The notes under the pieces are model-generated. The model searched no databases, was not told the origin of the DNA, and saw only the letters and a program-made list of their open reading frames with translations. DNA of 64,000 bases from Microbulbifer sp. HZ11 (GTDB taxonomy: Bacteria; Pseudomonadota; Gammaproteobacteria; Pseudomonadales; Cellvibrionaceae). Of the stretch, positions 46,329 to 62,629 are shown piece by piece. The stretch is from the NCBI RefSeq assembly GCF_000708675.1, contig NZ_JELR01000002.1, positions 1,256,228-1,320,227 on the forward strand, written 5' to 3'. A program made the translations under genes and the position numbers. Numbering within the stretch: the first letter of the stretch is position 1; each line of letters starts with the position of its first letter.

Positions 46329-48581
46329 ATGAATCATCTTTTCCGGGGGAAATTTCCCGTTTCCATCCTCGCTACCCTGATCGCGGCCTCTGCCGCGCCT
46401 GCAGTGGCGCAGACCGCGCCGGAAGACATCGAGGAAGTGATTGTCACCGCGCAAAAGCGCTCCCAGTCCATAGTGGACGTGCCGGTAACCATCAGCAGCC
46501 TGGATGGCGATACCCTGGAAGTGCTGGGTATCGACCGCTTCGACACCCTGTCGGATATGGTACCCGGCCTGGTGGTGCAGCAGCAGAGCGTCAACAACAA
46601 CGGCTATGTGATCCGCGGTCTCACCTCGGACGATGGCAGCGCGCCGGGCGCTGCGCGGGTTTCGGTCTATCTGAACGGCACCGATGTATCGCGCTCGCGC
46701 GCCTCCTATTTCGAGGTGTACGACATGGAGCGTATCGAGGTGGTGAAAGGACCGCAGGCCACCCTGTTTGGCACCGCAGCCTCCATCGGCGCCATGAGTT
46801 TTATCACCGCAAAGCCCCAGCAGGAATTTGCCTCGTCCCTGACGGTGGCAGCGGGCAACTTCGATATGCAGAAAGTCGAGGGCATGGTGACCGGCGGTAA
46901 TGACATAGTGCAGGGGCGCGTGGCCTTTACCAGTCGCGAGCGCGCCGGCTACGTGGAAAATACCAGCGGCGAGGCGGATCTGAACGGCTATGAACGCCAG
47001 GCGTTTCGCCCGAGCCTGCGCATCACCCCCAGCGACGATCTGACCATTGACCTGGTATACAACCACGATGAAGCCACCGATCCCGGCACGGCGTTTGTCA
47101 GCCGCGAACTGCTGTTCACCGACAACGCCGCCCTCAGTGTTCCGGACAATAACGTACTGGGCATGAACGACGTGGGTGTGGACCGCACCGTAAGCGATTT
47201 CAATGCGACGGTCAGCTGGGACCTGAACGACCAGCTCGCGCTCACCTATATCGGCGCACAGCGCGATTACGACTCTCTGGAAGCCTTCGACGCTGACGGC
47301 ACCGGGTTTGAGATGCTGAACTTTTCCGAAGACGCCACCGGTGACCAGACCAGCCACGAACTGCGCCTGAATTTCAGCGGTGACAAGATCAACGGCTTTG
47401 TCGGCGCCAGCTATTTCGCAGAAAGCGCGCAGCAATCGGTGGGTTACGCCAGTGACGAAGGCACCTTCCTGAGCTGCTCCGGCGGTCTCGCCGCGGCTGG
47501 TATTGCCGGCTGTAATGTCGATACCACTGCCCTGCTCACTGGTGGCGCAGTATCTGAGCTGCTGTATGAAAGCGAGTTCACCAATACCGCCGACAACAGC
47601 AACCTCAACCTGTTCGCGGACGTCGCCTATCAGATCAGCTCACGTCTCGAGGCCACCGCCGGCGTACGACTGGTGCAGGAAGAACGCGAGTCCGGCTATG
47701 TCAGCACCCTGCCCAATTCCATGCTGCTCGCAGCTCTGGGCATCGACAGCGACCTTTTCTTCGGCCTGCTGCCCAACACCGATGGCATCCTCATTCAGGG
47801 GGATACCGACAACTCCGCCGTGCTGCCGCGCTTCAACCTGCTCTACAGCGTCAGCGATAACATAAATGTTTACGGCACCGTGTCCCGCGGCGAGCGCTCT
47901 GAAATTGTGGATATGTCCTCCGGTAGCGAAAGCATTCTGCCTTCAGAGGAGATCGACAACTACGAGCTGGGTATCAAGGGGCGCCTGGGCGATACACCGC
48001 TGGATTACACCCTGGCGGCTTTCTACCAGAATTACGAAAATTTCCAGGTCAATGTGGTGGATCAGGAAAGCGGCCAGAGCCGCACGGAAAATGCGGGCTC
48101 CGCTACCAACACCGGTCTGGAAGCGGAACTGCGCTGGTATCCCACAGAACAGCTGCAGATCCTGGCCAACGCCGCCTGGATTGATGCGGGTATCGACGAC
48201 GATTCCGGCAACGGCAGCTATGCCGGCAACCAGTTCCGCCTGCAGCCGGAACTGACCGCCGCACTGGGTTACATTTATGAAACACCGATCAACGGCGCAC
48301 TGCTGTTCACCAGCAGCGGCAACTGGAGTTATCGCTCTTCCGTGTACTTCGATATCGCCAACCAGTACGAAGAAGATGCGGTGGATCTGCTGAGTCTGCG
48401 CGCGGGCATTGCCGCCAGTGATCGCAACTGGGCACTTACCCTGGCAGCCAGCAATCTGCTGGACGAGGAGTACATCATGGATGCGGGTAATACCGGCGGC
48501 GCCTTCGGCTTCCCCACCTACATCGAGGGTGCACCGCGTATGGTCAGTGTGGAATTCAACAAGCGTTTCGGCGCATTCTGA
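46329..48581 (+). CDS. TonB-dependent outer-membrane receptor
   Basis: 750 residues. Signal peptide (KFPVSILATLIAASAAPAVA), a TonB-box-like EEVIVTAQKR (about 37-46), plug domain with VPVTISSLDGDTLE, YVIRGLTS, VYLNGTDVSRSRA and ERIEVVKGPQATLFGTAASIGAMSFITAKP (about 135-165), then a 22-strand barrel ending VEFNKRFGAF with a C-terminal Phe. Substrate unknown. The RSQSIVDVPV opening is frequent in receptors for complex organics in marine bacteria. The nearest gene across the shared terminator is a PhoD phosphatase; a functional link is speculative. Confidence 0.92.
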   Translation: MNHLFRGKFPVSILATLIAASAAPAVAQTAPEDIEEVIVTAQKRSQSIVDVPVTISSLDGDTLEVLGIDRFDTLSDMVPGLVVQQQSVNNNGYVIRGLTSDDGSAPGAARVSVYLNGTDVSRSRASYFEVYDMERIEVVKGPQATLFGTAASIGAMSFITAKPQQEFASSLTVAAGNFDMQKVEGMVTGGNDIVQGRVAFTSRERAGYVENTSGEADLNGYERQAFRPSLRITPSDDLTIDLVYNHDEATDPGTAFVSRELLFTDNAALSVPDNNVLGMNDVGVDRTVSDFNATVSWDLNDQLALTYIGAQRDYDSLEAFDADGTGFEMLNFSEDATGDQTSHELRLNFSGDKINGFVGASYFAESAQQSVGYASDEGTFLSCSGGLAAAGIAGCNVDTTALLTGGAVSELLYESEFTNTADNSNLNLFADVAYQISSRLEATAGVRLVQEERESGYVSTLPNSMLLAALGIDSDLFFGLLPNTDGILIQGDTDNSAVLPRFNLLYSVSDNINVYGTVSRGERSEIVDMSSGSESILPSEEIDNYELGIKGRLGDTPLDYTLAAFYQNYENFQVNVVDQESGQSRTENAGSATNTGLEAELRWYPTEQLQILANAAWIDAGIDDDSGNGSYAGNQFRLQPELTAALGYIYETPINGALLFTSSGNWSYRSSVYFDIANQYEEDAVDLLSLRAGIAASDRNWALTLAASNLLDEEYIMDAGNTGGAFGFPTYIEGAPRMVSVEFNKRFGAF

Positions 48582-48616
48582 TTCCCTGCCTGGCGGCAGT
48601 CCAGACGCCAGACCAC

Positions 48617-48648
48617 AAAAAAGCCAGCACCCCGGTGCTGGCTTTTTT
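48617..48648. terminator. Bidirectional terminator, TonB receptor and phoD
   Basis: AAGCCAGCACC / GGTGCTGGCTT stem with CC loop, extended by A6 and T6 on its sides, between convergent genes. Confidence 0.9.
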
Positions 48649-48681
48649 CGTTTGCGACAGAATAAATTGCCGATTGAGGAA

Positions 48682-50370
48682 CTACACCAGTTTGTGTGTC
48701 ACCCGGTGGCTGTCGACCTCGGCAAACTCGGTGCTGTCGATATTGTCGATATATTTCCACTCCGCTTCGATGCCATCGCGGCGGAAGGTGAGCGCCATAA
48801 AACCCCGCTGGTGCAGGTTGCAGTACTGCAGATCATCCACCAGCACCGACATGCCCCGCGCCAGCTCTTTCGCGGACCGTTCATCCAGTTTCAGGTAGGT
48901 TTCCATACCCGGCGAGGTCACGCTGGGGGTTCCGAACTCGAGGCCCACCATGCGGCCATCGTTGTCTTTGAGGTGGTTATACCAGGCATTGTGGGTATCT
49001 CCCGCTACCACTACCAGATTCTTACCCTGCTCGCGCACTTCCTGATACAGGGTTTCCCGCTCCACCGCATAACCGTCCCAGGCATCGAGGTTATAAGGTA
49101 CCGCATTCTGTAAACGCTGTAGCTGCTGTTCGCTGAGCTGCCCACCGCGCAGGCTTGCGGCTTTCAGGCCAATCAGTTCCGAGGTCAGATTTTTGTCTCC
49201 GCCCCGGTAGAAGCTGGTCATCAGCTCCACGGGCAAGTGCATACGGCCCATCAGTACCTGCTGGCCCAGTACCTGCCACTGCCCCTTGGAGCGGGCCAGC
49301 GTCTTGCGCAGCCATTTGCGCTGCTCCTCTCCCAACAGGGTGCGGCTTGGGCTCGCCACATCCAGACTGAATGCGCGGGTATCAAAATTCCCTTTCTCGT
49401 CCATGTAGTTGGCAAACTGCAGTTGCTGATCGCGACCGATTACCCGGGTGTCCAGCATATGCAGATCCAGCAGATCACCAAACTGGAAGCTGCGGTAAAT
49501 CTGGGGATTGGTCTCACCCATGGGTGGGCGGATGGGCAACCACTCGTAGTACGCCTGCACCGCGGCGGCGCGGCGGGAATAGAAATCCCCTTCATCGGCA
49601 CTGTGGTTTTCGGCACCGTCTTTCCAGGTGTCGTTGGTCACCTCGTGGTCGTCCCACACTGCAATAAACGGCGCGGCGGCGTGCAGTGCCTGCAGGCCCG
49701 CATCGGTGCGGTAGAGTGCGTAGCGTTTGCGGTAATCCGTCAGCGTCAGGATCTCGCCGCTGTTGTCTTGCGGCAGCGCGCGGCCGATCTTTGCGGCGTT
49801 CTGCGTGGCGTAGCCGCCATCGCCGTATTCGTAGATGTAATCACCAAGGTGCAGTACCGCATCCCAGTCATCCGCCTGGGCGGCCAGCTGATACACATTG
49901 AAATAGCCCGCGGGATAATTGGAGCAGGAGAAAATCGCCAGTTTTATCTGGTCAACCTCATCCTCTGGCAAGGTTTTGGTACGACCGACCGGGCTCTGCT
50001 CATTGGCACCGCTAAAGCGATAGTAATAACGGGTATTCGGCTTCAGGCCGCGCACATCCACCTTGGAGGTATAGTCCCGGGCCAGGTCGGTTTCCACGGT
50101 GCCGGCACGCAGTACGCGGGTAAAGCCCGCGTCTTCGGCCAGTTCCCAGGAAATTTTTACCGGGCCGGTGGGATTGGCGTCCAGCGGTGTCGCCCGCGTC
50201 CATAAAATCACCGCGTCCTGCAGGGGATCACCACTGGCCACGCCGTAATCAAAGGAGACATTGGAGGGTAACTCCGGCCGGCTCATGGCCTGCAGCGGTG
50301 TGGATACGGCGACACTGCCGGTAGTGGCTAACGCAGCTTTGATAAAACTGCGGCGTTTGAGATTGGTCAC
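48682..50370 (-). CDS. phoD: PhoD family alkaline phosphatase (Tat substrate)
   Basis: 562 residues. A twin-arginine signal (KRRSFIKAALATTGSVAV, 5-22), N-terminal fibronectin-like PhoD_N (SFDYGVASGDPLQDAVILWTRA, GLKPNTRYYYRF), and a metallophosphatase core: IFSCSNYPAGYFN, LHLGDYIYEYG, VWDDHEVTNDTW and VVAGDTHNAWYNHL are the metal-binding motifs. It hydrolyses phosphomono- and diesters outside the cytoplasm, using Fe/Ca in characterised PhoD. Only a half-site resembling a Pho box is seen upstream, so PhoB control is unproven. Confidence 0.95.
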   Translation of the reverse strand: MTNLKRRSFIKAALATTGSVAVSTPLQAMSRPELPSNVSFDYGVASGDPLQDAVILWTRATPLDANPTGPVKISWELAEDAGFTRVLRAGTVETDLARDYTSKVDVRGLKPNTRYYYRFSGANEQSPVGRTKTLPEDEVDQIKLAIFSCSNYPAGYFNVYQLAAQADDWDAVLHLGDYIYEYGDGGYATQNAAKIGRALPQDNSGEILTLTDYRKRYALYRTDAGLQALHAAAPFIAVWDDHEVTNDTWKDGAENHSADEGDFYSRRAAAVQAYYEWLPIRPPMGETNPQIYRSFQFGDLLDLHMLDTRVIGRDQQLQFANYMDEKGNFDTRAFSLDVASPSRTLLGEEQRKWLRKTLARSKGQWQVLGQQVLMGRMHLPVELMTSFYRGGDKNLTSELIGLKAASLRGGQLSEQQLQRLQNAVPYNLDAWDGYAVERETLYQEVREQGKNLVVVAGDTHNAWYNHLKDNDGRMVGLEFGTPSVTSPGMETYLKLDERSAKELARGMSVLVDDLQYCNLHQRGFMALTFRRDGIEAEWKYIDNIDSTEFAEVDSHRVTHKLV

Positions 50371-50469
50371 GGTGACGGCTCCCTGGTGATGAAATCTGGC
50401 CCACCAGCCTAGCGTGACTTTATGACAGAAAAGGAAAAATTAAATGGCAACCGCATCCGGATGCCAGAA

Positions 50470-51519
50470 TTATTTGCCGACATTCAATATCACCTTGCCC
50501 ACGGAGCGGCCACTGCGCAGCTGTTCGATTGCGGCATGGGCCTGGGTAAACGCGAATTCGTGACCTATATGGGGTGCAGATAATCCGAGCGCAGCACAAC
50601 CATTTAAAAGCTCGCTAAAAAGTGCCTGTTCCTGCCACAACCAGATCAGGTTGAAAGCCAATACGGATCTGTTGCTGCTGATCATATCCATGACATCATA
50701 ACGGGGGCGCTTCAGATACAGCCAGGCGGCTTTTAACCAGTTGGGTTTGTCACCCGGGGTAAATTCTGCTGCACCGAACACTACCAGTCGGCCGGTGGGC
50801 GCGAGTGCGGCGAACGATTGCTTCTGAATTTCCCCACCGATGCCGTCGAGCACGCAGTGCAATGGCCGATCATTTAATTGCTGCTTTAACTGGCCGGCGA
50901 AGTTACTGCCGCGCACGATGATTTCATTGAATCCCTGTTCGGCGAGAAACTGCCGTTTACTTTCCGAGCTCACGGTGCCAATGGGATTTGCCCCCATGCT
51001 CACCGCCATACGCATGGCCTGCAAACCAACGCCACCGGCGGCACTCTGTACCAGCACCTGCTGCCCGGGTTTCACCGCGCCCAGACTGGTCAGCGCGTAG
51101 TAGGCGGTCAGACTCTGTGCAGGAAAGGCGGCCCCCTCAGCAAAGCTCCACTCATCTGGCATGTGGCGGCAGTGCTGCGGAGGGACATCCACCACCGTGG
51201 CGTAGCCACCAAAACGGGTACAGCCGTAAACACGATCTCCCACCTGCAACCCTGTTTGCACCCTGTCGCCGACCGCGATGACAACACCGGCAAACTCCAG
51301 CCCGGGAATAAAGCTGCCCTCCGGGGTTGCGGAATAGAGACCGGTCAGGGCAAAGATATCGGCAAAATTGAGGCCCACCGCACGCACCGCGACACGGATA
51401 TGCTCACCCTGTATCGGGCCCAGCGGCTCTTCCCGCAGGGTCAGGCGGCTGATGGCCCCGGCCTTATCCGTGCGCCATACCTTTCTTTTTATCATGTCTT
51501 GTTCAGCGGTCTGTGCCAT
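50470..51519 (-). CDS. Zinc-independent quinone oxidoreductase / MDR family
   Basis: 349 residues from ATG 51519. An N-terminal GroES-like domain (AVRAVGLNFADIFALTGLY, PGLEFAGVVIAVGDRV) and a nucleotide-binding domain with VLVQSAAGGVGLQAMRMA (about 150-167) and CVLDGIGGE. NADPH-dependent quinone or enoyl reductase of the medium-chain dehydrogenase family, lacking the zinc-binding cysteine set. A long in-frame upstream extension is antisense to the VRR-NUC gene region and was rejected. Confidence 0.9.
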   Translation of the reverse strand: MAQTAEQDMIKRKVWRTDKAGAISRLTLREEPLGPIQGEHIRVAVRAVGLNFADIFALTGLYSATPEGSFIPGLEFAGVVIAVGDRVQTGLQVGDRVYGCTRFGGYATVVDVPPQHCRHMPDEWSFAEGAAFPAQSLTAYYALTSLGAVKPGQQVLVQSAAGGVGLQAMRMAVSMGANPIGTVSSESKRQFLAEQGFNEIIVRGSNFAGQLKQQLNDRPLHCVLDGIGGEIQKQSFAALAPTGRLVVFGAAEFTPGDKPNWLKAAWLYLKRPRYDVMDMISSNRSVLAFNLIWLWQEQALFSELLNGCAALGLSAPHIGHEFAFTQAHAAIEQLRSGRSVGKVILNVGK

Positions 51520-51684
51520 GTGTAATCCTGCTTTTCGGCCGCCGGTCAGCCTACCGGGCAATCGGTATTTGCGCCACCAGGCGGTGAATGTCCAGACGGT
51601 CGCATCCACGTTTGTCCCGTCACTGCCGATGCTGTATAACCATACAGCATTACGCAAAACCCCGCCGAGTACCCCACTTCCGCT

Positions 51685-53346
51685 ATGGCCGAACCTGCCG
51701 AACTGACACCCGATTATTACCTCGACAATTTCCGCTCGCTGGTGGAGTTTGTGGTGTCGCGCTACGGGCAATTGTTGTCAGCGCAGGAGCGTTGGTTTTA
51801 CCAGACTTTCCGACGGCTGCAGCCGGATAGCCAGCGACTCTATGTGCGGTTGCTGTCCCGCAAGGGTGTGCCTTCCTCGTCCGGTGCGCTGTTCAGGCAG
51901 CGCAAGCTTGCCTACAGCGAGATCGGTGATTTGGACGCAGCCGTCGAAGAATTGATTGAAGCCGGCCTGCTGCTGCGCAATCCGGTTTTGCCGTTGCGGG
52001 AACTGCTGCCACTGTTTACCAAAAACGAACTGCTCGCCCACAGTCTTGAGCCGCTTACAAAATCTCTGAAGCGCCCGGCGGTGGAGCAGGCGCTGTGCAA
52101 GCAGGACGCGTCGACAATTCAATGTAGATTGACCAGTGAGCCTCTGCTGGCGGCGCAAGCGGCGGAGCACTTTGACACCTTCAAGCTGTTATTTTTCGGC
52201 AACCTCAACCAGGATCTAACCGACTATGTGTTGCGCGACCTGGGACTTTTCCGCTATGAACACTACCCGCTGGAACGGGAGCAACTGCCATTCCAGACAC
52301 GAGCGCAAGTTGAACAGCACCTGCGCTATTACCAGTGCCTGCAGGAGGCCGAGGCCGCACTGGCGGCAGATACAGAGGCCATCACTACCATTGCAGGCGA
52401 ATTACCTCAGGGGATAGATGGTGACGGCACCCTGCAGCGGCGCCTGGACAGGCTGCGTCTGACGCTGGCGCGCCAGCTGGAGCGGTTAGACGCACTGGAG
52501 GAAGCCGAGCAGCTATACCGGCAGTGCCGTCGCCCACCGGCACGGGAGCGGCGCGCACGGATTGCAGTGAGCCGTGGCGATATCCAGGGCGGCCTGGCAC
52601 TGTGTGCGGAAATTCTCACTGCCCCGTACAACGAAGCGGAGGCCACCTTTGCGGAGGCGTTTGCCCACCGCACCGCAAAGAAAACCGAAAGTGCTAGAGC
52701 CTGGCCAGCACCGAAAAAACACAAACCGGTGACGGAAACAGTAATGCTCGCGCCTTCCGAAGAGCGGGTGGAAATGCTCGCGGCAAGCCACCTTGCAGCG
52801 CCGTCTACCGGCGACCAGTGCCACTACGTGGAAAACACCCTGTTTAACGGTGTGCTCGGCCTCGCCATCTGGGATATTTTGTTCGCACCGATTCCCGGTG
52901 CCTTTTTCAATCCCTTTCAAATTGCCCCTAGCGATTTCCGCACCGCGGATTTCTATCCACAGCGTTGCGCCGCCTTCGAACAACGGCTCGCCGAACTTGA
53001 AAATGGCGACCTGGATAAATGGGTGTGGCGACATTTTCGTGAAAAGCGCAGTATCGCCAACCCGCTGGTATTCTGGGAAGGCCTGCCGGAGGCTCTGCTA
53101 GAGCTGGCGCTGGAACGGATTCCCACAGAACACTGGCTGGCCATCTTTCGTCGCCTGCTCGGCGATATTGCCAACCACCGCAGCGGCCTGCCGGACCTGA
53201 TTCTGTTTCCCGCGTCCGCAGGTTACGAACTGGTGGAAGTCAAGGGCCCCGGAGATCGCCTGCAACAGAACCAGCAGCGCTGGCTGACCTTTTTTGCCAA
53301 ACACCAGATTCCCCACCGGGTGCTGCATGTGGAGTGGCAGCCTTGA
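51685..53346 (+). CDS. VRR-NUC (FAN1-like) nuclease
   Basis: 553 residues. The N-terminal YYLDNFRSLVEFVVSRYGQLLSAQERWFYQTFRRL and RKLAYSEIGDLDAAVEELIEAGLL (winged-helix/SAP-like) and the C-terminal VRR-NUC fold are those of bacterial FAN1 homologues: RSGLPDLILFPASAGYELVEVKGPGD gives the D and ExK of the catalytic PD-(D/E)XK site (about 500-520), then QQNQQRWLTFF. FAN1 enzymes cut flap and crosslink-containing DNA. The stop overlaps the next gene by 13 bp, so the helicase is co-translated. Confidence 0.92.
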   Translation: MAEPAELTPDYYLDNFRSLVEFVVSRYGQLLSAQERWFYQTFRRLQPDSQRLYVRLLSRKGVPSSSGALFRQRKLAYSEIGDLDAAVEELIEAGLLLRNPVLPLRELLPLFTKNELLAHSLEPLTKSLKRPAVEQALCKQDASTIQCRLTSEPLLAAQAAEHFDTFKLLFFGNLNQDLTDYVLRDLGLFRYEHYPLEREQLPFQTRAQVEQHLRYYQCLQEAEAALAADTEAITTIAGELPQGIDGDGTLQRRLDRLRLTLARQLERLDALEEAEQLYRQCRRPPARERRARIAVSRGDIQGGLALCAEILTAPYNEAEATFAEAFAHRTAKKTESARAWPAPKKHKPVTETVMLAPSEERVEMLAASHLAAPSTGDQCHYVENTLFNGVLGLAIWDILFAPIPGAFFNPFQIAPSDFRTADFYPQRCAAFEQRLAELENGDLDKWVWRHFREKRSIANPLVFWEGLPEALLELALERIPTEHWLAIFRRLLGDIANHRSGLPDLILFPASAGYELVEVKGPGDRLQQNQQRWLTFFAKHQIPHRVLHVEWQP

Positions 53347-55823
53347 GCGAACACAAAACAGCCTTGAGCGGTGATGACGCAGCCTTGAGTGAAAAAATGC
53401 AGGACAATATTCAGATCTCCGTTGGCGAGCTGGTGGCGTTCGCCTGCCGCAGCGGCGACCTGGTCTCGAATATTTCCGGCGGCCCCACTGCCCTGGAAGG
53501 GATTCGCGCGCACCAGAAACTGCAGAAAAAACGCCCCGCGGATAGTGAGGCGGAATATTACCTGCAGGTGGAAATCGAGCAGGAGGCGCAGTCTGTAGTG
53601 CTCAGCGGTCGTGTGGATATTCTCCACCCGCAAAGTGACCTGCACCGGCCGGTGCAACTGGATGAAATCAAGACCACCTATGTGCCGCCGCACAAGTTGC
53701 CGGAATCCACCCGCGCGCTGCACTGGGCGCAACTGAAAATTTACGGTTTCTGCTATGGGCTGCAGCAGCAGTTTTCCGCGGATACACCGGTCGCGCTGCA
53801 AATGCTCTGGCACAACCTCAAAGAGAAAAAAACCTATCCGGAGTTACAGGAATTTTCCTGGCGCGAGCTGGAACAATTTTCCCGGGAGGCACTTGCACAG
53901 TATGTGCAGTGGCATCATCGCTGGCAGGCACATAAACACGCAGTGCGCGTATCGGCACAGGCTCTGGAATTTCCATTCGGCCGCTATCGCGATGGCCAGC
54001 GGCAACTTGCGGTGGCGGCCTACCGCTGCCTGCGCGACGGCGGTGAACTGGTGGCCGAGGCGCCCACCGGTATCGGCAAAACCATCAGCACCCTGTTCCC
54101 GGCGGTAAAGGCCATGGGAGAAACCGGCCTCGATCAGGTGATATATCTCACCGCAAAAAATTCCGGCCGCCAGGTGGTGCGGGAAACCACAACGAGCCTG
54201 CACGAACTGGGGCTGAGACTTTCCGTGCTGGAGCTGCAGGCCCGCGACAAAACCTGTGCCTGCAGCCTCGGGCTCTGTAGCCGCGATGAAGACGGTATCT
54301 GCCCGCGCACCAGGGGATTCTATGATCGCCTGCCGCCGGCCCGCCAAGCTTTGCTCGCGCAACCGTTACTCACACCCGAGATAATCGCGCAGGAAGCGGA
54401 CCGGTTGCAGCTGTGTCCGTTCGAACTCTCGCTGCAGATGCTGCCCTGGGCGGATCTGGTGGTGTGTGATTTCAATTATGTATTCGACCCTCTGGTGCAA
54501 ATGCACAACCTGCGGGACACACTGCGGCAGCGCGCATTGCTGGTGGACGAGGCGCACAATCTGGGGGATCGCGCGCGCGGTATGTACAGCGCAAAACTCA
54601 CGCGCAGTGACAGCCGCCGTGCGGCGGCCGAGTGCAAAAGTTCGCATCCGAGCCTACGCCGCGCGATCCAGTCGCTGGTACGAGCGCTGGATAAATGGGT
54701 TGTAGAGCAGCGGGAGTCGCGGACAAGTCAAAACCACCCGACCGAGCCAGTGCCCGCAAAATCAGAGCTGTGGATAAGTCAGCCCGGTGACGAGACGCCA
54801 CAGGCCGTCAACACCGCGATACAGAAAGTGCTGACCGTGGCCAACCAGCTGTGGGAGGCCGCACAACCGCCGCCGGACGCCATTGCCGACTGGCTGAAAA
54901 ACCTGTTCCGCTTCCAGGCGATCGAACAACTGGCAGGTGAAGAACACCGCTATATCACCCGCGCACAGCGCTCCAGCAATCCCGAGAGCCGCTGGCACGA
55001 ACAGGAAATCGAATTGCTGTGCCTGAATGCCGCAGAATATCTGCAGCAGGCTTACCGACTTTTCCACAGCGCAATTTTATTTTCCGCCACACTGCGCCCC
55101 GCGCACTTTGTGTACCGGCAGCTTGGTCTGCAGGCGGATTCGCCGTACCTGCAACTGCCGTCGCCGTTTCATCCGGAGCAAATGGGGCTGTTTGTGTGTC
55201 CCTACGTGGATACCCGCTACCGCGCGCGCCAGAGCGCGACCAGTGCCCTGGTGGATATGATTGCGCGCACTTTTCACAGCCGGCCCGGCAATTATCTGGT
55301 CTTTTTACCCTCCTATCGCTTTTTACAGCAGGTCGCCAAGTCTTTCGCCGAGCGCTTTCCGGAAATTGCGCTGGTACAACAGGAGTCCGGCAGTTCCGAA
55401 CAGCAGCGCGCCCGTTTCCTCGAGTTTTTTCAACCCGGTAGAGAAAGCTTGGGCTTTGCGATTATGGGCGGTATTTTTGGTGAGGGTATTGATTACGTGG
55501 GTGAACAGCTGGTGGGGACCATCGTGGTGGGCACCGGCCTGCCCCAGGTCAACGAGGAACAGGAACTGTTGCGCAGTGCCAGTGCCGCGCGCGGAGAAAA
55601 CGGTTTTGATATCGCCTACCGCTACCCGGGCCTGACCCGCGTGCTGCAAACTGCCGGGCGGGTGATCCGCAGCGAGAGTGACCGCGGCGTGGTGATTCTG
55701 GCCGACTACCGTTTTACCGATCCGTTTTATCGCAGCCTGTATCCACAACACTGGCAACCCCGGATCTGCGACAATGGCGAAACACTCGGTGCCGCACTCA
55801 AACAATTCTGGGAAACCCGTTAA
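53334..55823 (+). CDS. RecB-like nuclease fused to XPD/DinG-type helicase
   Basis: 829 residues from GTG 53334. The N-terminal about 150 residues have a PD-(D/E)XK site: D95 in GRVDIL, E111-I-K113, and the RecB-family Q133-x3-Y137. Then a superfamily 2 helicase: Walker A PTGIGKT (about 243-249), four cysteines in the expected Fe-S position (CAC, C, C near 305-322; C near 362), DEAH box at about 404, and C-terminal motifs QTAGRVIRSESDRGVVILAD. The N-terminus repeats AxLSE/G three times with possible TTG starts, so its exact start is uncertain. Partner of the FAN1-like gene upstream. Confidence 0.9.
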   Translation: MAALSEHKTALSGDDAALSEKMQDNIQISVGELVAFACRSGDLVSNISGGPTALEGIRAHQKLQKKRPADSEAEYYLQVEIEQEAQSVVLSGRVDILHPQSDLHRPVQLDEIKTTYVPPHKLPESTRALHWAQLKIYGFCYGLQQQFSADTPVALQMLWHNLKEKKTYPELQEFSWRELEQFSREALAQYVQWHHRWQAHKHAVRVSAQALEFPFGRYRDGQRQLAVAAYRCLRDGGELVAEAPTGIGKTISTLFPAVKAMGETGLDQVIYLTAKNSGRQVVRETTTSLHELGLRLSVLELQARDKTCACSLGLCSRDEDGICPRTRGFYDRLPPARQALLAQPLLTPEIIAQEADRLQLCPFELSLQMLPWADLVVCDFNYVFDPLVQMHNLRDTLRQRALLVDEAHNLGDRARGMYSAKLTRSDSRRAAAECKSSHPSLRRAIQSLVRALDKWVVEQRESRTSQNHPTEPVPAKSELWISQPGDETPQAVNTAIQKVLTVANQLWEAAQPPPDAIADWLKNLFRFQAIEQLAGEEHRYITRAQRSSNPESRWHEQEIELLCLNAAEYLQQAYRLFHSAILFSATLRPAHFVYRQLGLQADSPYLQLPSPFHPEQMGLFVCPYVDTRYRARQSATSALVDMIARTFHSRPGNYLVFLPSYRFLQQVAKSFAERFPEIALVQQESGSSEQQRARFLEFFQPGRESLGFAIMGGIFGEGIDYVGEQLVGTIVVGTGLPQVNEEQELLRSASAARGENGFDIAYRYPGLTRVLQTAGRVIRSESDRGVVILADYRFTDPFYRSLYPQHWQPRICDNGETLGAALKQFWETR

Positions 55824-55829
55824 TCCGCC

Positions 55830-56618
55830 ATGGTATTAGACCGCAAGTTTTATCGCCGCAGCCCCCACCAGCGCACCGAGCAGGATAGCGGGCAACGCGT
55901 GAGCTTTGTCGATGTGCGCAAGCGTTTCGATTTTCGCGGCATCAAGATCGGGCGCTGGGTAACCGAGGCGGAAAAGACCCGTGCCGCAGGGTTGTTTTAC
56001 GATGCGCTGATGGACCTGATGATCATTTTGCAGGGGCCGGAACTGCTGGTATCCCTGCGCGGCACCCTCGCGTTTCAGTACGGCAGCGGTGGTCGCCCGG
56101 GTATTTCCGCCCACTATGAAATCGGCTCGCGCACCTTTGCCCTAGCTAAAAATGCGGGCCCCGGCGCCATTGCCCACGAGTGGTTTCACGCGCTGGATCA
56201 CTACCTGGCCGACAAGGCCTTCAGCGACGCGCCCGGCAATATGTTCGCTTCCGAAGCCTGGCTGCGCGATGCCACGCCCATTCCCCACCCGATCAACGAT
56301 CTGCTGTTTGCCTGCTTCCGCGCGGTGATGCTGGATGAAAGCGGGGAAAACCCCAGCGAACTGTTTCGCGCATCCAAGGCCGCAGACAAGGCCAACGGCA
56401 CTATCTACTACGCGGACCCGGCGGAAATGTGCGCGCGCGCCTTCGAGGCCTTTGTGCAGGACGCGAGTATCTCCAATAATTTTCTAGTGGCGGGGACCAA
56501 AGCAACGGAAGAGGCGAAGATGGGGCTTTACCCCAGCGGGGTACAGCGGGAGCGGATCAACGCGGCCTTCCGCCGGTATTTTTCCGCACTGGGGCGCGCA
56601 CTTATCCAATCCGTGTAG
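55830..56618 (+). CDS. CLCA_X family HEXXH protein
   Basis: 262 residues. PGAIAHEWFHALDHYLADKAF carries an HEXXH zinc-metallopeptidase motif (H116, E117, H120) with a following His/Asp (D123, H124). The basic N-terminus YRRSPHQRTEQDSGQRVSFVDVRKRFDFRGIKIGRWV is typical of the family annotated CLCA_X. It starts 6 bp after the helicase gene, and the three genes form one operon. Its role is unproven; the association suggests processing of proteins on DNA. Confidence 0.85.
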   Translation: MVLDRKFYRRSPHQRTEQDSGQRVSFVDVRKRFDFRGIKIGRWVTEAEKTRAAGLFYDALMDLMIILQGPELLVSLRGTLAFQYGSGGRPGISAHYEIGSRTFALAKNAGPGAIAHEWFHALDHYLADKAFSDAPGNMFASEAWLRDATPIPHPINDLLFACFRAVMLDESGENPSELFRASKAADKANGTIYYADPAEMCARAFEAFVQDASISNNFLVAGTKATEEAKMGLYPSGVQRERINAAFRRYFSALGRALIQSV

Positions 56619-57300
56619 AGAACCAGCCGCGAATCATTCCCACCTGATAAAACGGAACGACAGGCTCAAAGCCGGCGGACTGAATGATTGCCTGCAATAC
56701 CTGCGGTGTCAGCACCGCAACGTCACGGTCGTAGACCTCGCGCATCCGTTGCACATCCTCAATGGATGCTTCTCCACCCCGCATAACCCGTATCCAGAGA
56801 TCGAGCAGCTGATCCTGCTCTGTGGAATGTTCCTCCGCGCACAGATCCGTGCTCACCAGCTTACCCGCAGGGCGCAATCGCCGTGCGATGTCGGCAAAGA
56901 AATCGGTTCGCTCGGTGCGTTCTAGAATAAACTGTGACACCAGAAATGCACTTGCGCCGTGAAACCTTTCCTTTTCTGGCAGTGATTCCACATAACCCTG
57001 ATGAAACTCGCAACGTGACGCAAAGCCCTCTACGTTGGCATGCTGCCGGCAGATTTCAATCATGGTTTCTGCGGGCTCCACCACGCTGAAGCGCCAACCG
57101 GGAAACTGGCGGGCAAGAAAGCGCAGCTCCGCGCCGGTGCCCGCGCCGACACACAGGAAGTTCGCTTCTTGTGGAAGCCCTGCCAATAGGCTCTGCATCA
57201 ACAAATGCAACGCATCATTCAACGGTGCAAGTCTTTCCCACTGGGTATCGTAGTTCGCTGCCTGTTGCTCGAACAGATTTCGTATTCTTTCCCGTTGCAT
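56602..57300 (-). CDS. Class I SAM-dependent methyltransferase
   Basis: 232 residues from ATG 57300. NFLCVGAGTGAELRFLA (about 55-71, motif I), FSVVEPAETMIEICRQHA (motif II region), LVSQFILERTERTDFFADIARRLRPAGKLVSTDLC (about 125-160). A small-molecule-type methyltransferase of unknown substrate. The 3' end overlaps the convergent HEXXH gene by 17 bp. Likely co-transcribed with the FAD oxidoreductase gene upstream. Confidence 0.85.
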   Translation of the reverse strand: MQRERIRNLFEQQAANYDTQWERLAPLNDALHLLMQSLLAGLPQEANFLCVGAGTGAELRFLARQFPGWRFSVVEPAETMIEICRQHANVEGFASRCEFHQGYVESLPEKERFHGASAFLVSQFILERTERTDFFADIARRLRPAGKLVSTDLCAEEHSTEQDQLLDLWIRVMRGGEASIEDVQRMREVYDRDVAVLTPQVLQAIIQSAGFEPVVPFYQVGMIRGWFSTRIG

Positions 57301-57342
57301 TCCGCCTACCCCGCCACTATTCACTTGCTGCAGTCGATTTTG

Positions 57343-58254
57343 TCAGAGGCCATCAAACATCAGCGATCGGTGTGCCGCGATACCGGCCATAGCACCATCC
57401 GCCATGGCGAATGTCACATTGCCCGCGCCGCGCGCGACATCACCACAAGCGAAGACACCTTCAACCGTTGTCGCCTGCATGGCGTCGGTCTGGATCACCT
57501 CACCGACTGGCGTCTCCTCGAAGGCACAACCCAGCTGTTCCGCCAGCGGCATCGGGTGCTCCAGTCGCGAGGCGACAAACAGTCCGGCCAAATCAAACTT
57601 GCGCCCATCCGTGAGGTGTACGACTGCTCGTTCCCCGGCAATTTTTGATACGGGCGTGCGTTCGATACACACATTGCGTCTGGCGAGTTGACGAAGCTGT
57701 TCCGCGTCCGGTTCAAACGACTCATTGATGAAAAATACCGTTGGCCCCCAGTCCGGCAACATCAGCGCGTGATGCATGGATACTTCACCAACCGCCAGCA
57801 CACCGATGGGTTGCCGTTGCAGTTCATAGCCGTGGCAATAGGGACAGTGAAAAACCGAGGTGCCCCAGCGCTCGAGTAATCCGGGCACGTCGGGTAACAC
57901 ATCGCGCACCCCGGTGGCGAGAATCAAGCGCGCCGCCTGGTAGCGCTTGCCTGCATGGGTGACCAGATGAAAACCGTCACCCGCTTTGTTAACGGACTCC
58001 ACCGTTGCCTCCGCCCAGCTGACGGTGGGGTACTCCCACAATTCCGCGCGGCCATCTTCGGCGATATCCGCCGGTGCGCGACCATCCTGACCGAGTACCC
58101 CGTGCGCATGAGCGGCAAAGCGATTGCGTCGCTGACCGCCATCCACCACCAGCACCTTGCGGTGCCCGCGCGCCAGTTGCATGGCTGCACTCATGCCGGC
58201 GTAGCTGCCGCCGACAATCGCTACATCAAACTCAGTCCCATCAATCGTCGCCAT
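57343..58254 (-). CDS. Thioredoxin-reductase-like FAD oxidoreductase
   Basis: 303 residues. FAD motif VAIVGGSYAGMSAAMQLARG (12-31), ILATGVRDVLPDVPG, a redox-type HCPYCHGYE (C139, C142 region), and FACGDVARGAGNV at the C-terminus. It resembles the thioredoxin-reductase/AhpF-like class whose members often lie next to Rrf2-type regulators, as here (overlap of 14 bp). Substrate probably a small thiol or dithiol protein, unproven. Confidence 0.88.
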   Translation of the reverse strand: MATIDGTEFDVAIVGGSYAGMSAAMQLARGHRKVLVVDGGQRRNRFAAHAHGVLGQDGRAPADIAEDGRAELWEYPTVSWAEATVESVNKAGDGFHLVTHAGKRYQAARLILATGVRDVLPDVPGLLERWGTSVFHCPYCHGYELQRQPIGVLAVGEVSMHHALMLPDWGPTVFFINESFEPDAEQLRQLARRNVCIERTPVSKIAGERAVVHLTDGRKFDLAGLFVASRLEHPMPLAEQLGCAFEETPVGEVIQTDAMQATTVEGVFACGDVARGAGNVTFAMADGAMAGIAAHRSLMFDGL

Positions 58255-58732
58255 CACTACAGTTCCTCATATGGGCGGCCTCGCTCAGTGCCTGCTGGGT
58301 AATGCCGCGCTGATCCAGTCGCTGGTGAAAATCCCGGCTCAGTGACGCCAGGGTGATTTGCTGAAACTGCGACAACAGCAGTGCCTCGGCCGCATCAAAC
58401 GCTTCCCCCATGGCACTGTTCACCGCCTGCTCCACCAGACAACCGGGGGCTTCGGTGCGGTGCCCGAGGGCCAGAACACCGGGTGCGCCCAGCGCCAGAT
58501 GGATGTCGTAGAGGGTGACGCTTTCCAGGTCTTTGGCCAGTCGCCAGCCACCGCCGTGGCCTTTTTCCGAGTGCACCAGCCCCTCCTTGCGGAGCCCTGC
58601 CAGGATGCGGCGGATCACCACGGGGTTGGTCTGCATCATGCCCGCCAGGGCATCGGAGGTAAGCGGGCCGTCAAACTCCGCCATATGCAGGAGCACGTGC
58701 AGCACTCCGCTCAATCTGCTGTCTCTTTTCAT
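58241..58732 (-). CDS. Rrf2 family transcriptional regulator
   Basis: 163 residues. The winged helix (RLSGVLHVLLHMAEFDGPLTSDALAGMM ... RRILAGLRKEGLVHSEKGHGGGWRLAKDLESVTLYDIHLAL) is the Rrf2 domain. A single cysteine in EAPGCLVEQAVNS occupies a position used for redox sensing, but the three-cysteine iron-sulfur set of NsrR/IscR is absent. It is coupled to the FAD oxidoreductase, and a palindromic operator overlaps its own start codon, so autoregulation is likely. Confidence 0.92.
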   Translation of the reverse strand: MKRDSRLSGVLHVLLHMAEFDGPLTSDALAGMMQTNPVVIRRILAGLRKEGLVHSEKGHGGGWRLAKDLESVTLYDIHLALGAPGVLALGHRTEAPGCLVEQAVNSAMGEAFDAAEALLLSQFQQITLASLSRDFHQRLDQRGITQQALSEAAHMRNCSDGDD

Positions 58733-58752
58733 GTAACTTACATTATTACATG
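58730..58752 (-). promoter_or_regulatory. Rrf2 operator overlapping its start codon
   Basis: CATGTAA-N9-TTACATG inverted repeat, with an internal TGTAACTTACA palindrome. The left end contains the start codon of the Rrf2 gene (58732). Rrf2-family sites of the TGTAA...TTACA type are common. Confidence 0.6.
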
Positions 58753-58834
58753 AAATGGCCGCGCGCAACTCTGACTGCTGAGCCAGCTATTCCGTCGGCG
58801 GTGGAAAGAACTTTCAGGAGAGTACAGCCCCGGC

Positions 58835-59578
58835 TCAGCCGGAGACTGCTTTGCCCAGCAGGGCCAAACCAGATAGGGCCAATAGCCATCGGCAGCTCAG
58901 CAGAAATACCCACTCATTGAAGTAATACTGCAGTCGGTAGCCGAGGTAGACACCGAGGTAAGCCGCCGGCACCAGGATCAGTGCGGTCACCAGCAACTCC
59001 CGGTTCCAGAAGCCGGCCAGGGTATAGGGCACCAGTTTGATCAGGTTCATTACCCCGAACACCACCCCGGCGGTGGCGAGCCAGGCGAGCTTTGGCAGGC
59101 CGCGCCCGATCAGATACATGTTCAGCGGTGGCCCGCCGGCGTGGATCAGTGTACTGGTGACACCGGACATCGCGCCCCACAGCCAGGCGCTGCCCGGCAA
59201 CCGCGCCACCAGCGGCGCAAGGTTCTGCCAGAAGGCAAACAGCAGGCTGAGAATGCCCAGGGACAGGGTCAGCGCAAAGGGCGAAACCCAGGCCAGCAGC
59301 CAGCCGCCCAGCGCTATACCGATCAGGGCCGCGGGCAGCAGTTTTTTGAGCTCGAGCCCGCTGCGGTGTTGCCAGTAGTAGGTGATGGTGCGCAAATCCA
59401 TCACCAGCAGAATTGGCAGCATCAACGCCACCGCTGTCTCCACCGGGACCACCAGCGCCAGCAGCGGCACCGCAACCACACCGGCGCCACCGGCAAAACC
59501 GGATTTGGAAATGCCGGTGAATATCACACCGATGATTGCCAACCCCCAGAACAGGGGGCTACTGCTGATTATTTCCAT
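58835..59578 (-). CDS. TauE/SafE family membrane permease
   Basis: 247 residues, about eight hydrophobic segments. N-terminal FWGLAIIGVIFTGISKSGFAGGAGVVAVPLLALVV and repeated GIALGGWLLAW, GVTSTLIHAGGPPLNMYLIGRGLP are the TauE/SafE pattern; the two halves are homologous. Members export sulfonates, sulfite or related anions. Monocistronic on the minus strand between the Rrf2 gene and the DUF885 gene. Confidence 0.93.
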   Translation of the reverse strand: MEIISSSPLFWGLAIIGVIFTGISKSGFAGGAGVVAVPLLALVVPVETAVALMLPILLVMDLRTITYYWQHRSGLELKKLLPAALIGIALGGWLLAWVSPFALTLSLGILSLLFAFWQNLAPLVARLPGSAWLWGAMSGVTSTLIHAGGPPLNMYLIGRGLPKLAWLATAGVVFGVMNLIKLVPYTLAGFWNRELLVTALILVPAAYLGVYLGYRLQYYFNEWVFLLSCRWLLALSGLALLGKAVSG

Positions 59579-59611
59579 ATCAGATCTGTCACTCGACAGA
59601 GTGAATATGGA

Positions 59612-61414
59612 TTATCGTTTGCTTTCCGCATCACTTTCCGCAACAAACCGATCCATCTGCACCTCCAGCATTTCCATAGGCACAGCACCGTTTGCCAGTA
59701 CCGCATCGTGGAAAGCACGCAGGTCAAACCTGTCGCCCAACTGCTGCTCGGCTTTTTTGCGCAGCTCTCGGATTTTGATTTCACCCATCTTGTAAGACAG
59801 CGCCTGCCCCGGCCAGGAGATATAGCGGTCTACTTCTGCACGAACATTCGCTTCCGACAGCGATGTATTTTCCGCGAGATAATCCAGCGCCTGTTGGCGA
59901 GTCCAGCCCTGGGAGTGAATGCCGGTATCGATCACCAGTCGCGCTGCGCGCCACATTTCATAGCTCAGGCGGCCGAACTGCTGATAGGGGGTATCGTATA
60001 CCCCCATCTCCACACCCAGGCGCTCGGTGTACAGAGCCCAACCTTCACCAAAAGCACTCAGGTACAGGTTTTTACGAAACTCCGGCACATTCTCCAGTTC
60101 CAGTGAAAGTGCCCCCTGCAGATGATGGCCGGGCACCGCTTCGTGGAGCGTCAGCGCAACCAGTTCGTATAGCGGGCGCTGATCCAGTGCATAGGTATTT
60201 ACCCAGTAGGCGCCACCGCGGGTTCCGCCAATAGCAGCGGGGTTGTAGGAAGCGGTGGTGTAATTGGGCGCGATTTCATCGGGTACCGGAACCACACCGT
60301 AGGGCAGGCGCGGCAGTTTGCCGAAGAACTCCGGCAGGCGGTAATCAATTTTCTTCGCGATATAGGACGCTTCTTTCAGCAACTCATCCGGCGTTTTGGC
60401 ATAAAACTGCGGGTCGGTACGGAGGAATTCGGTGAACTCCTCAAAGCTGCCGTCAAAGCCGCTGTCTTCGATCAATTGTTGCATTTCACCGCGGATACGT
60501 TTGACCTCGGCGAGGCCGATTTTATGAATCTCCCCAGGGTCCATATCCATGGTGACGTAAGTGCGAATGGCGTGGCGGTAGTATGCCTTACCTCCAGGCA
60601 GCTGCTCCGCACCGAGACTGTCGGTGGCGGCATTCATATATTCGCCGTCCAAGAAGGTGGCCACTCGGTCGAACGCCGGCATTGCGTGCTCGCGGATCGC
60701 CCGCGCTGCCTGCTCTTGTAGCCGCTTCCTGTCCGCTTCCGAAAAGCTTTCGGGAAACTTTTCAAACGGCTCGTACAGACTACTTCTGGTCGGTTCATCG
60801 TAGACCTGCGCGCGCACGGTGGGTGCAATACCTTTCACAACGATCTTAGGCAGCACGAAACCATCGTCTATACCTGCGCGCATATTCGCGATGTTCTCGT
60901 CAAAAAAACGGCCGGTATCCTCAATCCGTTGTATGTAATCCTCGTAGTCCGAAACCTGTGACATACTCAGTCCACGACTGGCACTCAGTGCAGTATTCCA
61001 GAAACTGTAGAACGTATTGACCGGTATCCGTTCCAGATAAAGCGCATTGGATTCAGCGGAGTTTTTCAGCACCCACAACAACAGATCCCGATTCACCTGG
61101 GCATCGGCATCCAATTTGTCACGATCAATATTTTCAAGCCGCTTAATAAATTGTTTTTCTGCTTTCAGACGACGGGCGCGATCTTGCCCGGAAACGCCGG
61201 GCAACCGGTTGTTATAACGCTTGTCGCCCATACGGCTGGCCGTAGTGGGATTTTCCTGCAGGTAGAATTGCCAGTGGTCATCAATGACCCGTTGTAGTTG
61301 CTCGCTGGGAGCGGCCGCCCACCCTGGCGAGACCAGCACCCAGAGGCAGGTCATCAGAAAGAAGGTTAACCCACGCCTGTTTCGCACAGGAATAGCGGTC
61401 GAATATCTTGCCAT
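59612..61414 (-). CDS. DUF885 family peptidase, exported
   Basis: 600 residues with a signal peptide (NRRGLTFFLMTCLWVLVSPGWA, cleavage near residue 34). The body opens LQRVIDDHWQFYLQENPTTASRMGDKRYNNRLP and carries the metallopeptidase motif LHEAVPGHHLQGAL (about 425-438) with HE..PGH zinc ligands and downstream EGWALYTERLG. DUF885 proteins are M3-like dipeptidases or carboxypeptidases. Likely periplasmic. Confidence 0.92.
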   Translation of the reverse strand: MARYSTAIPVRNRRGLTFFLMTCLWVLVSPGWAAAPSEQLQRVIDDHWQFYLQENPTTASRMGDKRYNNRLPGVSGQDRARRLKAEKQFIKRLENIDRDKLDADAQVNRDLLLWVLKNSAESNALYLERIPVNTFYSFWNTALSASRGLSMSQVSDYEDYIQRIEDTGRFFDENIANMRAGIDDGFVLPKIVVKGIAPTVRAQVYDEPTRSSLYEPFEKFPESFSEADRKRLQEQAARAIREHAMPAFDRVATFLDGEYMNAATDSLGAEQLPGGKAYYRHAIRTYVTMDMDPGEIHKIGLAEVKRIRGEMQQLIEDSGFDGSFEEFTEFLRTDPQFYAKTPDELLKEASYIAKKIDYRLPEFFGKLPRLPYGVVPVPDEIAPNYTTASYNPAAIGGTRGGAYWVNTYALDQRPLYELVALTLHEAVPGHHLQGALSLELENVPEFRKNLYLSAFGEGWALYTERLGVEMGVYDTPYQQFGRLSYEMWRAARLVIDTGIHSQGWTRQQALDYLAENTSLSEANVRAEVDRYISWPGQALSYKMGEIKIRELRKKAEQQLGDRFDLRAFHDAVLANGAVPMEMLEVQMDRFVAESDAESKR

Positions 61415-61543
61415 CGAGGATCTCCCGAGCAGTAATACTTTGCAGTTGGATAGGCGGTAACCATATCACGGTATCGCAGCGTCACGACGACAGGTTACCC
61501 GGCTGATCCGTAGACCCGTCGCATTCCGCCAGCGTCTGCACGG

Positions 61544-62629
61544 CTATTTCAAGGTACCGAAGTATTCTTCTCGGAGATCCATGATCGTTCCCTGTTCATG
61601 GGCGGCGATAATCTCCACGCTTAGGGGGCGCCCAAGTGGGCTATCCTTTGGTACGGCGAACGCATACTTATCCGGATTGAACAGTTTCCCTACCAAGCGC
61701 AGCCCCAGCTCAGGGTTTTGAAATGCAAAGTAGGCGAGCACCGGGCTATCTCCGACAATCGCGTCAATCTCTCCTGCGCGCAGTGCGGAGACCGTCTGCT
61801 CCGTACTTTCATAGGCACGGGTACTGATACCATTTTCCTGGGCATACTCCTCGGCGACACTACCGGAAAGCACACCGACTGTCTTTCCCGGAAGGTCCCG
61901 CAGCCCATTTACCTGTGAGGTAAGTGCCAGTGAAGTCATCACACTGGTGATGGACGCGGTAATAAAAGAAACAACCGCAACACCACACACAAGCCAGATA
62001 CCCGCCCAGATTTTTCCAACCCAGCCAAACAGATTCTTGCGATGGGCATTGCCGGATGTGGCGATAGACATGACAGAGTAAAAACTCTCGGCCAGGCCAT
62101 CACGCCAGCGCCGGGGAAACTCCGCGTCAAACTTCCGATCAAAAAGCGTGAATGCGAGCGTGGCCAGAATAATAACCGCGAGAATCCACAGGTAGCTGGC
62201 GAACATGCCGGTTTTTTTTAGCCCTTGCACAATATCGGAAATACTGGTTCTTCGCTTTTTACCGACCATTACCCGCAACCCCGCATCAAACCACGGTTGT
62301 GTAAAGTCGATTTTTCGCGCGCGGGCTTCTGTAATGGTCAGATTGGTAACTGCCACATCCACTTCACCCCTGTGCACGCCATCTACCAGACTTTTAATAT
62401 CCGAATACACACGATATTTGGATGCAAGATTCTGCTTTTGAGCGATGTTTTCCCACAGCTCCACCGACATACCGGATAGCCTTTCGCCCTCTTCCATTAC
62501 AAAAGGCGGGCTCAGATAGATACCCACATTGATTGACCTGGGCTCAGCGGTTCCCTGGCCGTATGCATTGGCGGCCGCGAGGCACAGCAGAATGAAGACT
62601 TTCCGTAAATATGGCAGCTTTCGCAACAA
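61544..62629 (-). CDS. GluR0-like ligand-gated ion channel
   Basis: 361 residues. Signal peptide (KVFILLCLAAANAYG), a periplasmic binding-protein half S1 (VGIYLSPPFV ... TITEARARKIDFTQPW, about 34-115), TM1 (about 146-164), a re-entrant pore loop (about 178-193, AESFYSVMSIATSGNA), TM2 (about 207-232), then the second binding half S2 (VNGLRDLPGKTVGVLSGSVAEEY ... IVGDSPVLAYF). This S1-M1-P-M2-S2 order is that of prokaryotic ionotropic glutamate receptors. The pore lacks the potassium GYG filter, so selectivity is not predicted. Confidence 0.85.
   Translation of the reverse strand: MLRKLPYLRKVFILLCLAAANAYGQGTAEPRSINVGIYLSPPFVMEEGERLSGMSVELWENIAQKQNLASKYRVYSDIKSLVDGVHRGEVDVAVTNLTITEARARKIDFTQPWFDAGLRVMVGKKRRTSISDIVQGLKKTGMFASYLWILAVIILATLAFTLFDRKFDAEFPRRWRDGLAESFYSVMSIATSGNAHRKNLFGWVGKIWAGIWLVCGVAVVSFITASITSVMTSLALTSQVNGLRDLPGKTVGVLSGSVAEEYAQENGISTRAYESTEQTVSALRAGEIDAIVGDSPVLAYFAFQNPELGLRLVGKLFNPDKYAFAVPKDSPLGRPLSVEIIAAHEQGTIMDLREEYFGTLK

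Follow-up and report, generated by a model that had tools for sequence, protein, structure and literature searches.

In Pseudomonas aeruginosa, expression of PA1865, named as the gene of a crosslink-unhooking nuclease, rises with UV-C and ciprofloxacin and falls with hydrogen peroxide, according to a study that, in the parts dealing with them, places both PA1865 and PA1866 among the responders that do not belong to the known LexA, Prt or Alp regulons (PMC12796719). The CLCA_X family was defined from Maqu_3852 of Marinobacter, with the motif printed as HExxHxxxD; in the relevant sections of that paper a protease is inferred, a cellular role is absent and just 12 of 115 representatives are without a mobile-element hit (Lenart 2013, PMC3650047). 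A phage-type peptidase clade with an Asp three residues after HEXXH is described in part of a later paper (Iyer 2017, PMC5512222). Here we analyse a stretch of 64,000 nucleotides (nt) from Microbulbifer sp. HZ11 (RefSeq assembly GCF_000708675.1, contig NZ_JELR01000002.1, positions 1,256,228 to 1,320,227), hereafter the window, in which genes for a FAN1 nuclease, an XPD/DinG-type nuclease-helicase and a CLCA_X peptidase follow one another on the forward strand. We consider it somewhat more probable than its contrary that this locus is a LexA-repressed crosslink-repair operon and that CLCA_X is a peptidase recruited to the same SOS response.

The window FAN1 is homologous over its full length to the P. 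aeruginosa protein (PaFAN1, PA1865), with the helix-turn-helix (HTH) and VRR-NUC domains and the catalytic D, E and K, but it stands behind a LexA box, together with a nuclease-helicase and, in Microbulbifer, CLCA_X. The helicase has the same domain order throughout as the DinG protein of Finegoldia magna (9kqh), but the aligned chain of the latter has A at the position of D95, whereas the window site is complete; because of this replacement the nuclease site of 9kqh may be mutated or inactive. The third protein shares with the CLCA_X and LPD1 polyvalent peptidases the HEXXH followed by a conserved Asp (D123 in the window), but it is a solo chromosomal form of 262 amino acids (aa) in a putative SOS-type operon, while the pertinent portions of the two family papers stress phage and plasmid context and assign no cellular function to the solo form. 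Like SPRTN and SprT it is an HEXXH zincin with a suspected role in damage repair; unlike them it is without a SprT-family match, its nearest folds are other zincins and it has no further Pfam domain. In a literature search on CLCA_X, on FAN1/VRR-NUC operons and on FAN1 with LexA, titles and abstract openings revealed no paper that deals with this operon or with CLCA_X as an SOS-controlled gene, which is weak evidence with subscription journals mostly outside the search.

LexA-type sites before FAN1 and CLCA_X

The canonical gammaproteobacterial LexA box is CTGT-N8-ACAG, and an exact copy stands shortly before FAN1 in the window (Table 1). Taken alone this box is not significant, because two or more exact sites are found in 17 of 100 shuffles of the window, which itself has two where 0.73 are expected. 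The second is at 1059-1074 (CTGTCGTAACTGACAG). The box is convincing because it is conserved across the Microbulbifer loci. A LexA-type site with at most one core mismatch precedes FAN1 in all 32 loci (the window and 31 others, one FAN1 on another contig being omitted), and in 22 the site is exact; random 315-nt stretches as a control give 11.5% and 1.4%, respectively, and the 32 loci, being from related species, do not count as independent trials. With eight other 4-base palindrome halves no exact site was found before FAN1, and sites within one mismatch in 0 to 5 of the 32 loci. Among 306 other open reading frames (ORFs) in these loci, an exact site lies within 150 nt in 9 and a site with at most one mismatch in 31. 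When the ORF filter was changed slightly, 11 exact sites were found within 150 nt before ORFs of at least 200 aa in 34 loci; 5 precede CLCA_X, 2 FAN1 and 4 an ORF divergent from FAN1 that shares its box, and none of the 11 precedes an unrelated ORF.

CLCA_X also has sites of its own. Where the gap between helicase and CLCA_X is 90 nt or more, 9 of 10 triads have a second LexA-type site (6 exact), 50 to 83 nt upstream of CLCA_X; where the gap is shorter, none of 16 does, the chance being 4.3% per random 130 nt; the gap is measured from the end of the helicase match, and the 90-nt limit was chosen after the gaps were inspected. Two of the eight Microbulbifer copies that are not beside an intact helicase have a one-mismatch site; such sites stand before separated or solo copies at loci L071 and L072, the genome of L072 being without a FAN1 or helicase match. 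By eye, some other non-adjacent Microbulbifer copies have apparently decayed sites at about the same place. For named genomes we took the best 80 of at least 481 CLCA_X relatives, of which 65 are not from Microbulbifer. Exact sites precede solo CLCA_X in Aestuariicella, Mangrovitalea and Marinobacter halodurans, and the 65 loci hold 3 exact sites (0.35 expected). Five plasmid copies are without a LexA site and six further loci of the order without an exact one. Judged by its upstream sequence, CLCA_X in some Microbulbifer seems to be under SOS control independently of its neighbours; in a compact operon such as that of the window, where helicase and CLCA_X are 6 nt apart, its control would depend on the box before FAN1. 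The whole cluster, with its peptidase, looks to be under SOS control.

The FAN1-helicase pair

In 341 genomes of the order, FAN1 was found in 143, the helicase in 121 and both in 116, and in 114 of these 116 the two genes are adjacent on the same strand with FAN1 upstream. In G536, one of the two exceptions, FAN1 adjoins CLCA_X and the helicase lies on a separate contig. The helicase occurs without FAN1 in 5 genomes and FAN1 without the helicase in 27. A class-wide sample of 229 genomes has the helicase in 6, adjoining FAN1 in 5. FAN1 and the helicase are thus a widespread conserved ordered pair.

Gene identities and active sites

An earlier note on this DNA, made from the letters alone, had read the locus as a block of three overlapping genes. 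All three forward-strand ORFs are present as it read them (Table 1), and FAN1 and the helicase do overlap, by 13 bp, if the helicase starts at the GTG at 53334; the helicase and CLCA_X do not. The true start of the helicase may be later, since its conserved part begins near residue 22.

Table 1. Features of the FAN1-helicase-CLCA_X locus in the window.
Feature	Position	Strand	Description
Predicted LexA (SOS) box CTGTATAACCATACAG	51632-51647	+	exact CTGT-N8-ACAG; begins 53 nt before FAN1 start
FAN1 nuclease gene (gene 1)	51685-53346	+	553 aa; PF08774 VRR_NUC, PF21315 FAN1_HTH
XPD/DinG-type helicase with N-terminal Cas4/RecB-like nuclease domain and Fe-S (iron-sulphur) cysteines (gene 2)	53334-55823	+	829 aa; PF06733, PF13307
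CLCA_X/LPD1 zincin-fold metallopeptidase (gene 3)	55830-56618	+	262 aa; NF041907, PF18796

The product of gene 1, which the note had called a FAN1-like VRR-NUC enzyme, is FAN1. It scores 100.8 bits with VRR_NUC and 81.5 bits with FAN1_HTH, both above the curated cut-offs, and has full-length matches to the PDB entries 4r89 (E 6e-90), which we take to be P. aeruginosa FAN1, and 5y7g ('Fanconi-associated nuclease 1 homolog', E 7e-90). Of the PD-(D/E)XK catalytic residues, D504 and K520 are kept in 72 of 72 aligned rows and E518 in 70. It is the single VRR_NUC match in the window's genome.

Gene 2 matches the DinG structure 9kqh over its whole length (E 4e-100) and has the superfamily 2 helicase motifs GIGKT at 246 and DEAH at 405. 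The N-terminal nuclease residues that the note had named are correct. In an alignment of 41 rows (38 different genes, three entered twice, mostly from Microbulbifer), D95, E111, K113, Q133 and Y137 are identical in all rows, H60 is kept in 40 and falls in a gap in the remaining one, and the cysteines C308, C323 and C361 are kept in 41 and C315 in 40. A predicted model of residues 21-215 (predicted local distance difference test, pLDDT, 90.8) matches the F. magna DinG (E 5.5e-14), SSO0001 (4ic1), presumably a Cas4 protein, EXO5 and AddAB. Both the site (H, D, ExK and QxxxY) and the fold are of the Cas4/RecB type. The helicase also matches the PADLOC models typeIV_DinG (PDLC01439, 385 bits) and Cas3 and the candidate model PDC-S28. 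A reading as the DinG of a type IV CRISPR system was rejected, there being no cas-model match at E≤0.001 among the ten flanking ORFs (46185-63617) and the partner being FAN1 in all but two genomes with both genes; automated annotation of defence systems could wrongly assign this helicase, paired with FAN1, to CRISPR type IV.

The note's putative HEXXH zinc protease, gene 3, proved to be a CLCA_X/LPD1 zincin, with 355.8 bits against NF041907 (curated cut-off 260) and 94.8 bits against PF18796. The HEXXH motif (H116-E117-x-x-H120) is intact in 124 of 125 locus rows, some genomes being entered twice; H116, E117, D123, H124, E199 and E206 are kept in all 125 and H120 in 124, and we infer that E199 is the third zinc ligand. 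A copy on a Marinobacter nanhaiticus plasmid (L053:7998-8720) has HEWFR for HEWFH, with R at H120, and a very long branch, and is probably inactive.

Likeness to the SPRTN protease, which the note had drawn, is not supported at the family level. A Pfam scan of CLCA_X at E≤1 gave LPD1 only, with neither the SprT-like PF10263 nor a DNA-binding domain; PF10263 has no match at E≤0.001 in the window's genome, and searches of PDB sequences with the single protein and with a profile gave nothing meaningful. The predicted model (pLDDT 85) has no structural match in the PDB at E≤0.001. With VIA-align its nearest entries are lethal factor (Z 9.8, root-mean-square deviation (rmsd) 4.1, 185 aligned), PPEP-2 (Z 8.6, rmsd 3.3, 147 aligned) and the metal-dependent hydrolase 3khi (Z 8.5, rmsd 4.4, 177 aligned), presumably MtfA; the Z values here are modest, and likeness of fold does not establish function. 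Wss1 is a weak Foldseek match (E 0.74), and SprT or SPRTN is not among the best 50 VIA-align entries, which excludes nothing. In a viral structure library the model matches polyvalent phage proteins (E 2.5e-11, template modelling (TM) score 0.72), and the protein also matches PHROG 616; weaker relatives occur as domains within giant ORFs (2667 and 3948 aa) and within proteins of phages and plasmids.

Nor does CLCA_X clearly replace SprT. In 37 CLCA_X-positive and 43 CLCA_X-negative genomes, hand-picked to cover the same families, SprT matches at E≤1e-8 were found in 8 and 19, respectively (Fisher p 0.057). The raw rates lean towards replacement, but the pattern is absent within families: in family f201 all genomes have SprT (4 of 4 with and 6 of 6 without CLCA_X), in f186 none has (0 of 4 and 0 of 4), and in f192 SprT coexists with CLCA_X in 4 of 4 CLCA_X genomes.

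Distribution of CLCA_X

In 37 sampled genomes of marine Microbulbifer CLCA_X is present in 35, FAN1 in 33 and the helicase in 32, the last count excluding a 72-residue remnant in G232. The contiguous same-strand triad FAN1-helicase-CLCA_X is found in 27 of the 37 (26 loci and the window; for G262, FAN1 and a portion of the helicase lie on a different contig) and, by coordinates, in two further Microbulbifer genomes of the order sample (G405, G488). In five the pair lies 2.8 to 16.4 kb from CLCA_X, in one (G233) the helicase is reduced to a remnant between FAN1 and CLCA_X, two have CLCA_X but neither FAN1 nor a complete helicase, and two, of which one is 80% complete, lack all three genes. A transposase-like ORF, recognised by eye, is among the genes parting helicase and CLCA_X in G242 (L096:8180-8971). 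In Microbulbifer thermotolerans (L066 and L115; 7937-8351 of L066) a helicase remnant of about 47 codons lies between open FAN1 and CLCA_X frames; this is a natural partial deletion useful for genetics.

The same-strand triad is seen in Microbulbifer only. In the survey of gene order that the earlier note had proposed, it was the FAN1-helicase order that held generally and the three-gene order that did not. CLCA_X is above the cut-off in 55 of the 341 order genomes; the same genome has FAN1 in 41 cases and the helicase in 28. FAN1 is thus in 41 of 55 CLCA_X genomes versus 102 of 286 others (Fisher p 1.6e-7), and co-occurrence with the helicase gives p 0.013, kinship being ignored in both tests; all 11 sampled CLCA_X genomes of genus g227 are without FAN1. 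In the class-wide sample CLCA_X is above the cut-off in one genome, the window's own.

Adjacency of CLCA_X and FAN1 outside Microbulbifer is limited to two groups, Marinobacterium (G298, G536) and Nitrincola (L154), and is suggestive. In Marinobacterium sediminicola FAN1 is divergent from CLCA_X, and in Nitrincola sp. A-D6 helicase and FAN1 are convergent on it; these two additional arrangements fall in separate parts of the CLCA_X tree. In the other non-Microbulbifer order genomes with both genes on one contig, CLCA_X and FAN1 are 36 kb to 1.4 Mb apart. Plasmid records with a CLCA_X match number 282, and the five inspected (Vibrio, Marinobacter) all have solo copies, as judged by tblastn within about 7-8 kb and by annotation where present. 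No conserved neighbour of solo CLCA_X was found, the commonest cluster besides CLCA_X and FAN1 occurring in 12 of the 80 best loci. A quick tree built from 110 rows requires 6 changes in linkage state and puts the three linked groups in different places. Apart from that of G233, the copies that are separated from the pair or have none, 7 in number, form one group inside the Microbulbifer copies (Shimodaira-Hasegawa-like approximate likelihood ratio test, SH-aLRT, 93), and the solo Aestuariicella copy also falls inside them.

An obligate three-gene unit is ruled out by the separations within Microbulbifer and the mostly solo CLCA_X elsewhere. The earlier note had named, as part of what would refute it, that the protease gene is lost independently of the two others. 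We found the reverse, CLCA_X outliving FAN1 and/or the helicase in Microbulbifer, as well as a FAN1-helicase pair that is common without CLCA_X, and for these reasons the three genes are not an obligate unit.

Discussion

We propose that upon DNA damage LexA would be cleaved and FAN1 and the nuclease-helicase made, and that CLCA_X would be made with them by read-through across the 6-nt spacing. From what is known of their families, the first two proteins would most likely act on interstrand crosslinks and on related ends that are branched or blocked. FAN1 would incise and resect beside the lesion, the 5'-3' XPD-like motor would open the DNA and the Cas4/RecB-type domain would trim a strand. 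CLCA_X we infer to be a separate, probably cytosolic zinc peptidase drawn into the Microbulbifer SOS response. It would most likely cut proteins that block repair, whether a protein stuck covalently to DNA, a bound obstacle or a regulator. Of the crosslink and DNA-protein-crosslink repair system that the earlier note had suggested, the pairing of FAN1 with an XPD-like nuclease-helicase is retained and the family analogy with SPRTN is dropped. The part in DNA repair that it gave the protease gains a link to DNA damage, because the cluster and, separately, CLCA_X carry LexA-type sites in Microbulbifer; any cleavage of DNA-protein crosslinks by it is hypothetical.

Several observations weigh against our proposal. 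CLCA_X stays in eight Microbulbifer genomes where FAN1 and/or the helicase have been lost (three) or moved (five). It is also the most conserved of the three, with a median identity to the window of 74.6% (34 loci) versus 66.6% for the helicase (30) and 67.3% for FAN1 (31), as if constrained by another task. In 63 of the 65 non-Microbulbifer CLCA_X loci neither FAN1 nor the helicase lies within up to ±10 kb, some contigs being shorter; 62 of the 65 are without an exact LexA site within 300 nt, and sites with at most one mismatch occur in 8, which is about chance (7 expected; control 10.9%). Of twenty FAN1 genes from other groups, 1 has an exact box and 5 have a box with at most one mismatch (against 1.8% and 13.9% in the control). 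One exact box in 20 genes does not support SOS control of FAN1 across the order; such control does not look to be shared by FAN1-helicase pairs in general and looks lineage-specific. By analogy, the induction of PA1865 by UV-C and ciprofloxacin would count for our proposal, and its listing outside the LexA regulon and its repression by peroxide against it.

Some near-LexA sites were seen in family f3. A one-mismatch site, CTGTATGCATAACCAG, is at -34/-35 before FAN1 in 4 of 4 loci (L185-L188), and exact boxes precede FAN1 at -24 in L034 of the same family and at -41 in L042. The f3 sites may bear on the UV-C and ciprofloxacin induction of PA1865.

The solitary state of most CLCA_X genes, their variable neighbours and their stronger conservation would all be expected of an SOS-regulated regulatory or housekeeping peptidase which, in the manner of IrrE/ImmA or MtfA, cleaves a repressor or other cytosolic protein and has no direct part in crosslink repair. 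The likeness of the model to lethal-factor, PPEP and MtfA-type zincins and the coexistence of CLCA_X with SprT in families f192 and f201 point the same way. We regard this explanation as possible, if the less probable one; it fits less well with the LexA-type sites that CLCA_X has of its own in several lineages and with its adjacency to FAN1 or the helicase in three arrangements. At the other extreme, CLCA_X might be an SOS-induced DNA-protein-crosslink peptidase unrelated to SprT, co-opted from mobile-element polyvalent proteins, that forms one operon with FAN1 and the nuclease-XPD helicase for clearing interstrand and protein crosslinks. In this specific form we find the idea doubtful.

It is unlikely, and a little more so, that CLCA_X is a hitch-hiker whose place behind FAN1 and the helicase is accidental and to whose function the intergenic LexA-type sites are irrelevant. 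The linkage is confined to one genus and two small groups and is broken in 8 of 35 CLCA_X-bearing Microbulbifer genomes, and the co-occurrence with FAN1 ignores kinship and fails in g227; but flanking genes vary between Microbulbifer loci while the triad stays together in 27 of 37 genomes, and CLCA_X keeps its own site in nearly all long-gap triads and in some solo copies. Quite improbable is a domesticated phage or plasmid polyvalent-protein peptidase directed against mobile elements and SOS-induced because SOS also wakes prophages, which would suit the giant-ORF, phage and plasmid relatives, the viral library and PHROG matches and the published rarity of representatives free of a mobile-element hit, but not the presence of CLCA_X in 35 of 37 Microbulbifer genomes, unlike a mobile gene, nor the PADLOC results, in which FAN1 and CLCA_X have no match at E≤0.01, the helicase matches the models named above and a methyltransferase (mad2) alone matches among the ten flanking ORFs.

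Conclusions

Since FAN1 and the helicase are a conserved ordered pair, the helicase is the natural partner to test in the biochemistry of bacterial FAN1. For the CLCA_X family there is now a concrete setting that can be tested, with an SOS-type promoter and a putative crosslink-repair operon. If it is true that CLCA_X acts on DNA-bound protein, it would represent a second, SprT-independent bacterial route for crosslink proteolysis.

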